A stretch of 5,782 nucleotides of DNA from Eubacteriales bacterium (GTDB lineage: Bacteria; Bacillota_A; Clostridia; Christensenellales; Aristaeellaceae), in NCBI GenBank assembly GCA_028692205.1, contig JAQUXV010000186.1, forward strand, positions 1 through 5,782, read 5' to 3'. Positions 114 through 4,677 of this stretch are shown here, one piece after another. Numbering within the stretch: the first letter of the stretch is position 1; every line of letters begins with the position of its first letter. Both the position numbers and the translations under genes were made by a program. The notes under the pieces were generated by a model that ran no database searches, had not been told where the DNA came from, and was given only the letters and a program-made list of their open reading frames with translations.

Positions 114-144
114 GACCGGACGGCATTCAGCCGCCCGGTCTTTT
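114..144 (+). terminator. Intrinsic terminator after the upstream plus-strand gene
   Basis: GACCGG (114-119) pairs with CCGGTC (135-140), and CGGC (121-124) pairs with GCCG (130-133). There is a single A/C mismatch between the two blocks and the loop is ATTCA. TTTT (141-144) follows directly, with more T soon after. It sits 10 nt downstream of the TAG at 101-103, as expected for the terminator of that gene. Confidence 0.75.
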
Positions 145-179
145 GGATTTACCTTTTTCAAAAGGCAGGAAAGTAAAGA

Positions 180-510
180 GGGGTTTCGCACCTGTAGGTG
201 TTACCAAAGGGCTTTCCGCTCGCCCTTTGGAAGCCTTCGGGCCCTGCTGGGCTCTTTATTGTGCCGTTCGGCACCGGGGCAGGGAATGCGCCTGCGGGCG
301 CACAGGGGTTTCGCACCAGCGGGTGCGACCAAAGGGCTTTCCGCTCGCCCTTTGGGAGCCTTCGGGCGCAGCTTGCGTCCTTTTTTTGTGCCGTTCGGCA
401 TTGGAACAGGGAATGCGCCTGCGGGCGCACAGGAGTTTCGCACCTGCGGGCGCGACCAAAGGGCTTTCCGCTCGCCCTTTGGGAGCCTTCGGGTCGCCTG
501 CGTTGGCGGC
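180..510 (+). repeat. Tandem hairpin-rich repeat array, left arm (3 units)
   Basis: Three related units begin near 180, 305 and 432, a period of 125-127 bp; the third is cut short. Each unit is a string of hairpins. H1 is TCGCACC-TGC-GGGTGCGA-like. H2 is CCAAAGGGC/GCCCTTTGG around the conserved loop TTTCCGCTC (213, 338 and 465). H3 is terminator-like. H4 is GTGCC-GTTC-GGCAC. H5 is TGCGCC-TGC-GGGCGCA. The H3 stem differs in each unit but still pairs: GGGCCC/GGGCTC (239-254, then TTTATT), GGGCGCA/TGCGTCC (364-380, then seven T), and GTCGCC/GGCGGC (493-510, no T-run). Open frames run through the array in several frames at once, as expected of stop-poor GC-rich repeats, and I see no real gene. 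Confidence 0.85.
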
Positions 511-516
511 GGGCTG

Positions 517-617
517 CGCGAAAGGGTCGCCCCTCGGAGTACAGGATAGTCGTCCACCGCCGCTGCGGCAGCGGCGACCGACAAGCCTGTCCATCCTGCG
601 GAGCGAACCCTTTCGCG
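517..617 (+). ncRNA. Candidate structured RNA element, copy 1 (unidentified family)
   Basis: The outer stem is CGCGAAAGGGT (517-527) with ACCCTTTCGCG (607-617), 11 bp. The apical hairpin is CGCCGCTG (558-565) with CAGCGGCG (569-576), loop CGG. Between them lie two core strands, 534-555 and 576-600, that are identical to copy 2 on the other strand. Core pairs include ACAGG (541-545) with CCTGT (586-590), and GTCG with CGAC. An alternative pairing, CAGGAT (542-547) with ATCCTG (593-598), is mutually exclusive with the first. The stems are unrelated in sequence to those of copy 2 but pair in the same places, so structure appears to be conserved. I do not recognise the family. A DNA cruciform or a mobile palindromic repeat is the alternative. 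No promoter is visible nearby, so expression is inferred only. Confidence 0.55.
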
Positions 618-734
618 TCCCGCCTTGCTTGCCGTCAGGCGACAGGGAACCTTCCCCTTCCCATGCGGTTTCAATCTCTTTTCCCTTGCATGTTTGTCTG
701 CCGATTTTTCTTCCGCTTGCAGATTGTTGCTTCA
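618..734. other. Centre of the convergent repeat region, no feature seen
   Basis: This spacer separates the two inverted copies of the structured element. It is less GC-rich than its flanks and pyrimidine-rich on the plus strand around 650-715. I see no convincing gene, promoter or strong hairpin here. It is where the two arms meet, so it may mark the junction of an old inversion or insertion. Confidence 0.5.
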
Positions 735-873
735 GGGGCGCGGTGCTCCCTCGCAGGATGGACAGGCTTGTCGGTCACCGATACCACGGATGCTTCTGTA
801 AAGCATTGTTGCTCTGCCATCCGTGGTGTCGGCGGACGACTATCCTGTACTCCGAGAGGAAGCACCGCGCCCC
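735..873 (-). ncRNA. Candidate structured RNA element, copy 2 (unidentified family)
   Basis: Read on the minus strand. The outer stem is 18 bp: GGGGCGCGGTGCT (873 to 861) and the next five bases pair with 735-752, with a single G.U that pairs only on the minus strand. The apical hairpin is ACCACGGATG/CATCCGTGGT (783-792 with 818-827), 10 bp with a long loop. The core strands at 834-855 (22 nt) and 752-776 (25 nt) are identical to copy 1. The variable middle is 57 nt here against 20 nt in copy 1. Conserved core strands with freely changing but complementary stems are the usual signature of a structured RNA. The G.U pair favours transcription from the minus strand, the same direction as the adjoining repeat arm. 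Confidence 0.55.
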
Positions 874-1391
874 TTGCCCGACTGCAAGCCCGAAGGGTGC
901 AGGGGCGAGCGGAAAGCCCCTGCTCGCACCCACAGGTGCGACTCCCCCGTGCGTCCGCAGACGCATCCCCTCGCCCGCGCCAAATGGCGCATAAAAAAGA
1001 GCCCAATAGGGCCCGAAAGGTGCAGGGGCGAGCGGAAAGCCCCCTGCTCGCACCCGCAGGTGCGACACCCCCGTGCGTCCGCAGACGCCTCCCCCTGCCC
1101 GTGCCGAATGGCGTATAAAAAAGAGCCCAACAGGGCCCGAAGGGCGCAGGGGCGAGCGGAAAGCCTCTGCTCGCACCCACAGGCGCGACACCCCTGCCCG
1201 CGCTGAATGGCGCATAAAAAAGAGCCCAACAGGGTCCGAAGGGCGCAGGGGCGAGCAGAAAGCCTCTGCTTGCACCCGCAGACGCATCCCCTTGCCCGCG
1301 CCAAATGGCGCATAAAAAAGAGCCCAACAGGGCCCGAAGGGCGCAGGGGCGAGCGGAAAGCCCCTGCTCGCACCCGCAGGTGCGACACCCC
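874..1391 (-). repeat. Tandem hairpin-rich repeat array, right arm (5 units)
   Basis: This is the same repeat family as the left arm, in the opposite orientation. The conserved H2 loop (GAGCGGAAA on the plus strand) occurs at 907, 1030, 1154, 1253 (one base changed) and 1351. The spacings are 123, 124, 99 and 98; the short units lack a ~25 bp piece around H5. H2 stems are mainly GCAGGGGC/GCCCCTGC here instead of CCAAAGGGC/GCCCTTTGG, so the stem changed while pairing and loop were kept. Four units carry a minus-strand terminator-like H3, GGGCCC-TGTT-GGGCTC followed by six T (999-1014, 1123-1138, 1222-1237 with one mismatch, 1320-1335). H4 is GCGCC-AAAT-GGCGC (1298-1311). The array lies directly downstream of the prsA-like gene on the minus strand. 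Confidence 0.85.
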
Positions 1392-1423
1392 TTCCCCTTG
1401 CGCACGGGCAGTGTGCCTTTCCC

Positions 1424-1446: not shown

Positions 1447-1471
1447 AAGAAGGCCCCCTTTTCAGGGGGCC
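1443..1471 (-). terminator. Intrinsic terminator of the prsA-like gene
   Basis: On the minus strand GGCCCCCT (1471-1464), loop GAAA, and AGGGGGCC (1459-1452) form a perfect 8-bp stem capped by a GNRA-type tetraloop. TTCTTTTTT follows (to 1443). It starts 17 nt after the TAA of the prsA-like gene. Confidence 0.9.
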
Positions 1472-1488
1472 AAAGATAATGGAATGTG

Positions 1489-2928
1489 TTATTCGGCGCT
1501 GTCGGTGCTGTCCGTGCCCTGCAGCTCGTCAACAGTCTTCAGCAGGCCCGTGTACTGGATATCCGCGGCTGCTTGCCAGGCATCCATGGCTGCGGAGTTC
1601 TTGTCCGTAAGCAGGGTAGAGCGGATACTCTCCTTCAGCTCGTCGGTCAGTTCCACGGGGCCGGCAGGCACGTCGCCCATGTATTTTACGATGTGGACAC
1701 CGTAGTCGCTCACGTAGGGGGCGCTCACGCCGCCAATTTCATCGATGGAGAAGGCGGCTTCCACAAACTCTGGCACGAAGCTGGTGGAGGCGAGGGCGAC
1801 TTCGTACCCGTTGGGGTAATCGCCGCTGGTCATACCCGGGTCGCTGGCGGTTCCGTCCGCGTTCACGCCGTACTCGGCAATCAATGCGTCAAAATCCTCG
1901 CCCTGCGCGATCTTATCGTAAATTTCGGTGGTCTTATCCTGCAGCGAAGCAAGGATGTCCGCCTTGGCGTTGTCAACATCCGCCTCGGTTACGGGCGTTT
2001 CGGTGGGTTCGGGCGTCGTATCCGCCTCAACGGTCGCATCGGGCGCCGCAGTGGCGTCGGCCGCGGTATCGGAAGTGGTGTCCGCTTCATTTTCCATCTG
2101 CTCTTCCAGACGGGCCTGCAGATCGGTGTAGGTGCTCAGCAGGGTATCGTCCACCGGCAGAAGGATGTGCTTTACGTAACGGTAGCCCGCGGGATGGTAC
2201 CACGGTTTTTCGGTCGCGTACTGGTAATTGTAGAGCATCAGCTGATACTCGTACGAATCCAGATCGTTCTCGTACAGCGCCTGATCGTTCGCGACATTGG
2301 TTTCGTACTGCTGCTGGATATCATCATCCGTCACGGTGATGTCCTTGCAAACAAATTCCTGCACACGGGTGTAGGTTTCGTTGTCCAGATAGTTCTGGCG
2401 AAGGATATCCTTAGTGTAACCAAGGTTGCCGTAGTACGCCTCGGCCTCGGCATACGCGGAAGCCTTTTCCTCGTCGGTGGATTCGTCGGTCAGGCTGCCC
2501 GCGGACTGCACATAGTTGTCCAGCGCGGACTGCCAATCGGAATCGGAGGAGGCGTAGATCGCGGCCTTCTCGTCGTCGGTGTACTGGTCCAGCCCGTTGG
2601 CGGCAGCGGTGGCCTGGATGAGTTTCATGGTTACGGCCTCTTCCATGGCGACGGCGTAATACAGCTCCAGGCTGGTATCGTCGGGCTCGCCATAGTAGTT
2701 CACGAGGCTCTGGTAATAGGTGGCCGCGTCCGCCCAGGTGATGTCGGTGCCCTCCACGGTGGCGATCACGTCGGTGTCTGCCAGCTGCGGGGCGGTTACG
2801 GCGACGGCGTCGGTTACCTCGTCGGTGGCGACGGCGGTTACATCCTGCGCTTCCGCCAGAGAGATGGAGAAGCTTGCCAGCAGGCACACGCTCAGCAGCA
2901 TGGCAAGCACTTTGCGAAATTTGTTCAT
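1489..2928 (-). CDS. prsA: Secreted PrsA/SurA-type foldase (parvulin peptidyl-prolyl isomerase)
   Basis: A 479-residue exported protein expected to help fold secreted proteins outside the membrane. Residues 1-27 form a signal peptide: basic MNKFRK, a hydrophobic core, then an AEA-Q cleavage site. The Cys at 15 lacks a good lipobox (LSVC), so unlike classical PrsA it may not be a lipoprotein. Residues 50-250 are a SurA/PrsA-like helical chaperone region rich in Asp, Glu, Ala and Tyr. The parvulin domain starts at YRYVKHILLP (249-258) and resumes with GEDFDALIAEYG (343-354), SGDYPNG (368-374), FVEAAFSI (388-395) and YGVHIVKYMGDV (409-420). Between the two parts, about 278-315 is a low-complexity Thr/Ala/Pro/Glu insert. 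The RBS AAAGGA (2943-2938) lies 9 nt before the ATG. The family assignment is strong; the symbol is by analogy. Confidence 0.85.
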   Translation of the reverse strand: MNKFRKVLAMLLSVCLLASFSISLAEAQDVTAVATDEVTDAVAVTAPQLADTDVIATVEGTDITWADAATYYQSLVNYYGEPDDTSLELYYAVAMEEAVTMKLIQATAAANGLDQYTDDEKAAIYASSDSDWQSALDNYVQSAGSLTDESTDEEKASAYAEAEAYYGNLGYTKDILRQNYLDNETYTRVQEFVCKDITVTDDDIQQQYETNVANDQALYENDLDSYEYQLMLYNYQYATEKPWYHPAGYRYVKHILLPVDDTLLSTYTDLQARLEEQMENEADTTSDTAADATAAPDATVEADTTPEPTETPVTEADVDNAKADILASLQDKTTEIYDKIAQGEDFDALIAEYGVNADGTASDPGMTSGDYPNGYEVALASTSFVPEFVEAAFSIDEIGGVSAPYVSDYGVHIVKYMGDVPAGPVELTDELKESIRSTLLTDKNSAAMDAWQAAADIQYTGLLKTVDELQGTDSTDSAE

Positions 2929-3640: not shown

Positions 3641-3749
3641 GTGGTGGCAGGCGAGGGTTCCAGCGCGCTTTCGGACGCTAACCATCCTTCCGGCTTTTCT
3701 CCGGGAGATGGACTGCAGGCACCGCGACAGTTGATCGGAATTCCACCAC
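3641..3749 (+). ncRNA. Possible compact multi-hairpin RNA, unidentified
   Basis: GTGGTGG (3641-3647) pairs with CCACCAC (3743-3749), closing a 109-nt stretch. Inside, GGTTCC (3656-3661) can pair with GGAATT (3737-3742). There are then three hairpins: AGCG/CGCT, CCATC-C-TTCCGG with CCGGGAGATGG (11 bp with one bulge), and GACTG/CAGTT. Several of these pairs are G.U on the plus strand and would be mismatches on the minus strand, which favours a plus-strand RNA. There is no nearby promoter and no T-run directly after it. It may be read through from the L,D-transpeptidase gene, or the fold may be chance. I could not match it to a known riboswitch. Confidence 0.25.
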
Positions 3750-3800
3750 TTATATTAGCCTCGCTGTAGCGCAGACGATAAAACAAATGGCCTTTTCAGC

Positions 3801-3843
3801 AAAATACCCCCGCCGCGGCTTGCGATTGCCGCGGCGGGGGTAT
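3801..3843 (-). terminator. Strong terminator of the ireB-ruvX-DUF1292 operon
   Basis: ATACCCCCGCCGCGGC (3804-3819) and GCCGCGGCGGGGGTAT (3828-3843) form a perfect 16-bp stem with loop TTGCGATT (plus-strand sense). On the minus strand TTT(T) follows at 3804-3801. The plus-strand side has no T-run, so it serves the minus-strand operon, ending about 20 nt after the DUF1292 stop codon. Confidence 0.85.
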
Positions 3844-3864
3844 CGTTATACCATTATCCGGAGA

Positions 3865-4179
3865 TCAGTTTTCCTCTCCGTCGCCCTGTTCCTCCAGAAC
3901 CTCCAGGCACTTCTGGAAAACGCGCTGATACTCTTCCTCGTCCTCTATGGTCGCGTAAAGATCATCGCCGTTCTCGTCCTGCTCGATCTTGAGGATGATG
4001 GATTCGCCTTGCAGGCAATCCTCCATGTCCTGCTGCGCTTCCAGCAGGATATAATTCGCGCCTTCGAATTCCAACGTCAGCAAATGATCGAAAGTGATGT
4101 CGTTGCCATTCTCATCCTGAAGGGTCACGATATGCTCGTCGTTCTCCCCGGCCGGTTCGCGTTGATCCTGCTCTTTCAT
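3865..4179 (-). CDS. yrzB: DUF1292 (YrzB-like) small acidic protein
   Basis: A 104-residue, very acidic protein of unknown function. The core EHIVTLQDENGNDITFDHLLTLEFEGANYILLEA (about 15-48) followed by a second beta-rich part (SIILKIEQDENGDDLYATIEDEEEY) matches the DUF1292 family, usually about 80-110 residues. Both ends are disordered-looking and charged (MKEQDQREPAGEND and EEQGDGEEN). It has no signal peptide or membrane segment, so it is presumably cytoplasmic. The RBS AAAGGAG (4194-4188) lies 8 nt before the ATG, so the start is well supported. It is the last gene of the operon, 54 nt after ruvX, and the terminator follows at once. The order ireB-ruvX-DUF1292 is widespread in Bacillota and supports the call. 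Confidence 0.9.
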   Translation of the reverse strand: MKEQDQREPAGENDEHIVTLQDENGNDITFDHLLTLEFEGANYILLEAQQDMEDCLQGESIILKIEQDENGDDLYATIEDEEEYQRVFQKCLEVLEEQGDGEEN

Positions 4180-4233
4180 AAAGCCCGCTCCTTTGTGAAC
4201 CGTGGCCGCCCGCAGTTCCGGCGCGACCCACGG

Positions 4234-4677
4234 TCAGGTTTCCGTATCATTCAGAATTTTTGCGCCGCTGGCCAGCCATTGCGTAAGGATGACCGCCGCG
4301 GCCAGTTTATCCACATTGCGTTTGCGCTCGTCACGCCGCACTCCGCCTTCGATCAACGTTTTCTCGGCGGTTACGGTGGTCATCCGCTCGTCCCAGTAGA
4401 AAATGTTCAGCCCCGCGTCGGCGAGCACTTTGCCAAACGCGAGCGCCTTTTCCGCCTGCCCGCCCCGGGTACCGTCCATGTTCAGGGGCAGGCCCAGCAA
4501 CACGTCCGCCGTTTGATACCGTTCGCACAGGGCTTGCACGTAACGGCTGTCGGGGCCGTACCCCACACGGCGATAAACCTCCACCGGCTGGGCGATGGTG
4601 CGCGTAGGGTCGGTAACCGCCACGCCGATGCGCACGTCGCCCACATCCAGCGCGAGAACGCGGCCGGAACCTGTCAC
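4234..4677 (-). CDS. ruvX: RuvX/YqgF nuclease (pre-16S rRNA processing / Holliday junction resolvase family)
   Basis: A 147-residue RNase H-fold nuclease. The YqgF family is implicated in 5'-end maturation of 16S rRNA and was earlier proposed as a Holliday junction resolvase. The expected motifs are present in order: [19 protein letters not shown] with acidic Asp11, [14 protein letters not shown] (62-75), YWDERMTT (94-101) and [11 protein letters not shown] with Asp123. Length is normal for the family. The start is GTG 4677, which overlaps the TGA stop of ireB in GTGA, so the two genes are probably translationally coupled. A modest RBS, GAAAGGG, lies about 9 nt upstream inside ireB. All expected acidic active-site residues appear intact. 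Confidence 0.95.

Follow-up and report, generated by a model that had tools for sequence, protein, structure and literature searches.

Long hairpins with an almost unchanging core between mirror-image terminator-like arrays: a repeat family of four related genomes that resembles bacterial palindromic repeats

In the Bacillus cereus group, bcr1-type repeats are long, structured and intergenic. In those parts of two accounts of REP and BIME elements on which we draw (PMC3733652, PMC2817692), these are described as intergenic multi-copy palindromes that occur as inverted dimers, prefer convergent or unidirectional genes, have compensated stems and have been proposed to act in termination and supercoiling. 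BOX, RUP and SPRITE of Streptococcus pneumoniae appear in the portion of the source used here (PMC10969869) as bunched intergenic repeats with terminator-like elements. The element reported here looks like a new relative of these bacterial palindromic repeats, namely a real, clade-restricted composite palindromic repeat. Like REP and BIME it is multi-copy, palindromic and intergenic and has compensated stems. With the pneumococcal repeats, which we compared by their partial description, it shares an intergenic position and terminator-like parts; the difference, as far as that description goes, is that the modules of our element form mirror-image arrays around hairpins. Structured RNAs of Rfam also have covarying stems around a conserved core, but no Rfam family matches the hairpins of the window up to E = 1, the four matches found in the window at this threshold all lying elsewhere.

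The window, that is the whole analysed stretch of 5,782 nucleotides (contig JAQUXV010000186.1 of a Eubacteriales bacterium), contains two mirror-image hairpin copies which on letter-by-letter comparison have the same core and unlike stems, each stem being paired (Table 1). An earlier note on this DNA had reported core strands of 22 and 25 nt that are identical in both copies. Both identities are correct: 534–555 is the reverse complement of 834–855, the exact match even extending to 533–555 (23 nt), and 576–600 is the reverse complement of 752–776 without extension. In 200 mononucleotide shuffles of the first 1.5 kb no inverted exact match exceeded 18 nt, so both core strands are beyond chance. 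In both copies the outer stems around this identical core are indeed unrelated in sequence and yet compensated, although full self-complementarity, which had been ascribed to both, is found only in copy 1 (517–527 / 607–617, perfect), whereas the 19-nt arm of copy 2 (734–752 / 856–874) pairs at 95%. On both strands the copies are much more stably folded than their dinucleotide shuffles, with z values of -5.4 and -6.9 for copy 1 and of -10.4 and -10.5 for copy 2. The hairpins are present where the note had placed them, but both reach further and have an extra closing stem outside, and the strand opposite to the one named there folds better, by 10.3 kcal/mol in copy 1 and by merely 0.5 kcal/mol in copy 2.

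Table 1. Features of the element and its surroundings in the window
Feature	Position	Strand	Basis
Left tandem array, 3 copies, spacing 125–127 nt, conserved hairpin GGGCGAGCGGAAAGCCC in each (211, 336, 463)	130..493	-	repeat and motif scan
Terminator-like hairpin, inward from left	239..254	+	terminator scan
Terminator-like hairpin, inward from left	364..380	+	terminator scan
Copy 1 including closing stems 493–499/637–643 and 508–513/619–624	493..643	-	read from sequence; same closing stem in other class I copies
Hairpin copy 1, of class I, made up of outer stem, core and short apical hairpin	511..620	- (better-folding strand)	R1 105.7 bits (window copies part of model), folds, exact core strands 533–555 and 576–600
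Spacer between closing stems of both divergent hairpins	644..714	.	without sigma-70-type promoter-like site
Copy 2 including closing stem 715–722/882–889	715..889	+	read from sequence; sequence of closing stem without relation to the one of copy 1
Hairpin copy 2, of class II, made up of outer stem, core and long apical arm	732..879	+	R1 124 bits (copy part of model), folds
Right tandem array, about 5 copies, spacing 98–124 nt, mirror orientation; unit hairpin at 905, 1028, 1152, 1349; variant near 1250 by eye	890..1396	+	repeat and motif scan, reading
Terminator-like hairpin, inward from right	999..1014	-	terminator scan
Terminator-like hairpin, inward from right	1123..1138	-	terminator scan
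Terminator-like hairpin, inward from right	1320..1335	-	terminator scan
Terminator-like hairpin directly after PpiC-type gene running towards array	1452..1471	-	terminator scan
Flanking gene, PPIC-type peptidyl-prolyl isomerase, directed at array	1489..2928	-	Rotamase PF00639, E 4e-8

The anatomy given by the earlier note was also incomplete, since the hairpin pair is enclosed by two mirror-image tandem arrays. The repeat scan itself reported the right array as five copies at 827–1396, the first of which is just 60% like its reference. Most units carry the unit hairpin or a close variant of it on their outward strand, and with a pattern allowing six loop forms the loop reads GAGCGGAAA in 130 of the 169 distinct units from all loci. 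Positions 1–1520 of the window contain ten terminator-like sites, some of them overlapping, where 2.8 are expected; eight point inward and two outward.

Further copies with compensated stems in other genomes had been predicted, and this was borne out by a multi-copy family in four related genomes, G001, G003, G004 and G005. An exact 14-mer scan of genome contigs gave at least 119 loci; among the matches listed, L117 and L171 are true copies and both come from one Eubacteriales MAG (JAJFVI, G001). In this genome of 2.9 Mb GACAAGCCTGTCC has 18 exact occurrences, compared with about 0.1 occurrences estimated by chance. With the covariance model R1, built from 20 copies including those of the window, 52 matches from the window, the four genomes and one phage contig were retained out of 116 rows, the rest being opposite-strand echoes, double listings of one place or partial matches. 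They comprise 48 distinct hairpin sequences, and full-length matches span about 102–149 nt. The core is almost unchanging across the copies and, as the earlier note had held, sequence-specific.

The family has a narrow reach. R1 matches were found in four of 60 genomes (G001 and relatives; up to 52 candidates scored per genome) and in the same four among 200 genomes of the family of G004 (up to 15 candidates), while G004 alone matched among 396 genomes of the order (up to seven candidates) and among 391 genomes of the class (up to eight); because the candidates scored per genome were limited, copies elsewhere could be missed by these searches. A 17-mer of the array unit occurs 39, 14, 42 and 34 times in G001, G003, G004 and G005, respectively, and across the 396 genomes of the order it is found only in G004 (42) and once in one other genome. 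When ten further loci were compared with Rfam up to E 0.1, the sole matches were those of both strands of the L273 hairpin to a microRNA precursor model, with 43 and 37 bits at a cut-off of 168. A known Rfam family was thus rejected for the window and these ten loci, no match reaching its gathering score. Blastn searches gave no match in phages and, in plasmids, two matches over a quarter of the query which we take as chance. Among viral contigs 93 loci have the 14-mer, with the partner strand nearby in L014 alone; three more viral patterns gave 12, 0 and 9 loci, and R1 applied to 19 of these together with L295 and L014 matched L014 alone. L014 (IMGVR_UViG_3300028857_000237, 3650–4421) is a phage contig (portal and scaffold genes of SPP1 type) which carries three array units and one full hairpin; at the contig end there is an apparent start of the divergent partner hairpin (weak match, E 0.74). 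A full-text search with the core and unit strings returned no paper, and among titles and abstract starts from the wider literature, with most subscription papers and all preprints outside this scope, we recognised nothing as the present element.

The pairing of the stems is maintained through sequence change. In a MAFFT alignment of 20 copies made without structure, from which two of the first 22 copies with disturbed outer stems are omitted, 24 of 38 pairs have changed on both sides (69 cells versus a shuffled mean of 17.6) and 94.8% of the cells pair. None of 500 shuffles reached the observed values, though as the copies are related the shuffles overstate the significance. When the partners are slid by 1–3 columns, pairing falls to 34–46%; this control retains the relatedness, but the structure was predicted from the same sequences and is hence favoured over its slid versions. 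All 14 pairs of the outer helix have changed on both sides. With all 22 copies RNAalifold predicts 25 pairs, 15 of them changed on both sides. The core pairs hardly vary among the copies, and by eye the mismatches of the core (a 3x3 loop and G-A) are kept in nearly all of the 48 copies.

At least two closing-stem sequences occur that have no relation to each other, GUCGCC/GGCGAC and GCUUGCAG/CUGCAAGC, and in both cases the strand pairs with its proper partner. In class II it pairs over 6–8 nt in eight of eight copies; in class I at least 6 nt are paired in 24 of 36 copies and at least 5 nt in 26 of 36, and of the ten weaker rows eight belong to G004 copies for which the script had picked a CGAAGG that comes too early, while by eye UGUCGCC pairs with GGCGACA downstream. 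Combining strands across the classes gives at least 6 nt in 14 of 576 cases and at least 5 nt in 181 of 576 (four copies were skipped in this test). At L323 (6100–6260) and L014 (4240–4400) the 5' strand of the closing stem and the linker (CTGTCGCCAT..AACC.GCAA-like) are seemingly repeated upstream of the true hairpin.

Thirty-seven places were tabulated. The inverted dimers typical of REP and BIME are found at 15 of them (in the window, in all four genomes and on L014), always as a divergent pair, minus then plus, with a spacer of 111–348 nt; in two of these (L279, L014) the partner is cut by the contig end. Twenty places have a single hairpin, two a same-strand tandem and none a convergent pair. 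The single hairpins are mostly in G001, some at contig ends and others not. In most places the units are on the strand of the hairpin and outward of it, and at L346, L364 and L366 mirror pairs consist of units only. In the arms of 68 feature clusters the terminator-like sites point inward in 39 cases and outward in eight, so that 26 clusters are more inward, five more outward and 37 equal. Two copies 3.8 kb apart on contig C26 of G001 might be taken for the ends of a cargo element; this was rejected, since the genes between them look ordinary by eye (purD- and purH-like) and both hairpins come with units or a flank of their own, and they are counted as two places. At L292 (about 2300–2430) and L323 (about 2485–2545) of G001 the hairpin seems, by eye, to be interrupted by another repeat family whose ends resemble GTTTAA...TTAAAC.

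As with REP and BIME, the placement is intergenic with mainly convergent or unidirectional flanks. The 30 two-sided loci comprise 15 convergent, 13 tandem and two divergent gene pairs, compared with 18 convergent, 81 tandem and 28 divergent among 127 control neighbour pairs, all based on simple longest-ORF calls. Convergent pairs are enriched (15/30 versus 18/127, Fisher p 7e-5, the loci not being independent), and of 36 one-sided flanks 22 are 3' ends and 14 are 5' ends. Several places are conserved between species: at six of seven G003 loci (L285, L286, L287, L345, L364 and L366; not L346) one of the two nearest genes per side is also found, with 66–91% identity, beside the element in another genome, a further G003 place (C192) being outside this count. 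In G003, L345, L364 and L366 have units, and the hairpin was not found there. Domain scans of 34 chosen flanking proteins identified, at shared places, GyrB, GyrA, a RecF/SMC-type protein, DnaA, ScpA, RNase J, RNase Y and TGT; shared loci lie beside gyrB-gyrA, a recF-like gene, dnaA, scpA and the genes of RNase J and RNase Y (L273, L277, L325, L354, L278 and L280). A possible preference for genes of DNA topology or RNA decay is no more than a lead, as shared places favour conserved genes. The element is present at dnaA in G001 and G004, and in the fetched stretches of up to 1.5 kb it is absent at dnaA in G003 and G005, at orthologues of the window's PpiC gene in all four genomes and at NrdD in G005, which speaks against fixed places. 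At L370, 3' of the PpiC gene in G004, there is a different tandem intergenic repeat of the GGGGCTTGGGGTGGAACCCC type.

The earlier note had regarded the two copies as a conserved RNA fold. Covarying stems and a specific core are present, but the RNA nature as stated is unsupported. Read as RNA, the hairpins would be structured non-coding RNAs, or 5' domains of long repeat RNAs, which start in the spacer, are divergent where paired and bind a protein or ligand with their core. In agreement with this, the outward strand of whole hairpins folds better in 22 of 22 copies, by 0.5–25.4 kcal/mol (mean 9.7), the mismatched internal loops are conserved, and the closing stem has been swapped as a unit between the classes. 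This apparently clear RNA strand is mostly gone once the outer arms and the apex are taken separately. A functional RNA stem is expected to tolerate G-U over A-C. In the apical part mismatches on the outward strand are G-T in 27 and A-C in seven cases (37 apices, the copies being non-independent), whereas in 37 outer stems mismatches flanked by Watson-Crick pairs are G-T in 36 and A-C in 35 cases (six of the 48 copies skipped, duplicate arms removed). Likewise, for the outer arms alone the outward strand is better in 22 and the inward strand in 17 of 39 copies, six of the 48 being without a recognisable core and the others containing N. Hence only the apical part has an RNA-strand signature, and the lack of a G-T excess in the outer stem means that this stem is kept at the DNA level, in both transcripts or by correction from arm to arm. 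In addition, a scan of positions 1–1520 of the window found no sigma-70-type promoter-like site, outward terminators are rare, and at one place shared by two species (L278 and L285) the spacers look unrelated by eye. Given this evidence we regard the reading as structured non-coding RNAs as decidedly unlikely. As far as can be read from sequence, the distribution of the element (multi-copy, intergenic, partly in divergent pairs, with inward terminator-like arrays and at convergent genes) fits a structured intergenic repeat better than a classical non-coding RNA gene. A sponge RNA of the CsrB/RsmZ type, prompted by GGA in the unit loop, was rejected as CsrA (PF02599) is over the cut-off in none of the four genomes; two matches below it are in G003 and G004.

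The lack of strand bias in the outer stem would also be expected if the palindrome were non-adaptive, its pairing being upheld by template switching and by conversion between arms and copies without any function. The fused hairpins at L362 (3470–3710) and L363 (850–1060) of G001 fit this idea. Each apparently joins the 3' half of a class I copy to that of a class II copy, with the spacer and the two 5' halves lost, and is possibly the trace of an inverted-repeat-mediated deletion; arm-to-arm events thus do happen. The homogenised copies of G004 also fit a non-adaptive palindrome. Nevertheless, correction between arms would erase the mismatches of the core, and their retention argues against correction as the full explanation. 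Moreover, the placement at gene ends and the direction of the terminators are ordered, and places are common to different species. We therefore consider a functionless palindrome to be quite improbable.

Copies within one genome can be identical. Among the 52 matches exact repeats of others occur four times and only in G004, where distinct hairpins are also up to 99% identical. In four comparisons of hairpins at places shared between species the identity is 50–75%, no better than the between-genome averages of 58–66%. The likeness within a genome may reflect either concerted evolution or recent spread. The latter would suit a non-autonomous, MITE-like mobile element, now or recently moving, with the hairpins as its ends, and so would the multi-copy state, the near-identical hairpins at different places of G004, the copy on the phage contig, the absence from some orthologous sites and the many places with a single hairpin. 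However, conversion between arrays predicts the same likeness, several loci are common to different species, and the arrays run outward past the hairpins that should be the ends. By eye neither clean empty sites nor target duplications were seen in the few orthologous sites compared, where the surrounding sequence also differs. The Y1 transposase (PF01797) is absent in G001, G003 and G004 and present once in G005, all assemblies being fragmented; with three of four genomes lacking it, mobilisation of the RAYT/IS200 type was rejected. Altogether a mobile element appears rather unlikely to us.

We suggest that the element is a BIME-like repeat which acts in bidirectional termination or insulation and whose core is a binding or structural site, a reading which we hold tentatively and at somewhat less than an even chance. 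The two copies of the window would be one dyad with the full layout of terminator units, hairpin, spacer, inverted hairpin and again terminator units; many places would have retained one hairpin alone and some the units alone. The element lies mostly 3' of genes that are convergent or tandem, and its inward-facing units may stop or stabilise transcription arriving from either side. The long hairpins might form as a cruciform or in read-through RNA and would then display the almost invariant mismatched core, which a host factor (a topoisomerase, nucleoid protein or nuclease) would most likely recognise. The sequences themselves establish the family, the pairing, the divergent order of paired hairpins, the direction of the terminator-like sites, the gene placement and the conservation at several orthologous places; that transcription ends there in vivo, that the core is recognised and that supercoiling or decay may be affected is proposed on this basis. 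That a pair is found in fewer than half of the 37 places weakens this reading and slightly raises the mobile and the neutral explanation. Further points against it are the 37 clusters with balanced and the five with mostly outward sites, the 14 one-sided flanks that are 5' ends and the orthologous genes that lack the element.

The element is not a REP by definition. REP palindromes measure 20–40 bp, whereas the hairpin here has 100–150 nt and only the hairpin of the array unit (about 27 nt) is of that size. In REP the tag GTAG/CGTC is unpaired at one end, but here CGTC is inside the paired core and the 48 copies have, by eye, no common tag at the base; the invariant part is a mismatched core within the stem instead of an end tag. 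The association of GTAG REP families with RAYT (Y1) has no counterpart in three of the four genomes, and the outer arrays of terminator-like units are a further difference from REP and BIME. An undescribed chromosomal site is conceivable, with long hairpins that occur in pairs at some places at least, an almost invariant mismatched core, free stems and mirror-image terminator arrays. It would be retained where core genes end (in some genomes dnaA, a recF-like gene, gyrB-gyrA, scpA and the genes of RNase J and RNase Y), homogenised within a genome and recognised by a dedicated host factor for insulation of transcription or for control of supercoiling or mRNA decay; this more specific proposal we consider unlikely.

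Covariation alone does not equal RNA, as the outer stem covaries strongly without an RNA-strand signature, and in such cases structure at the DNA level or correction from arm to arm should be taken into account. With the covariance model R1 and the loci at hand the question can be tested. What is new compared with the described REP repeats, which are short, is a long hairpin with a fixed internal mismatched core and freely replaced stems inside a mirror-image terminator array.
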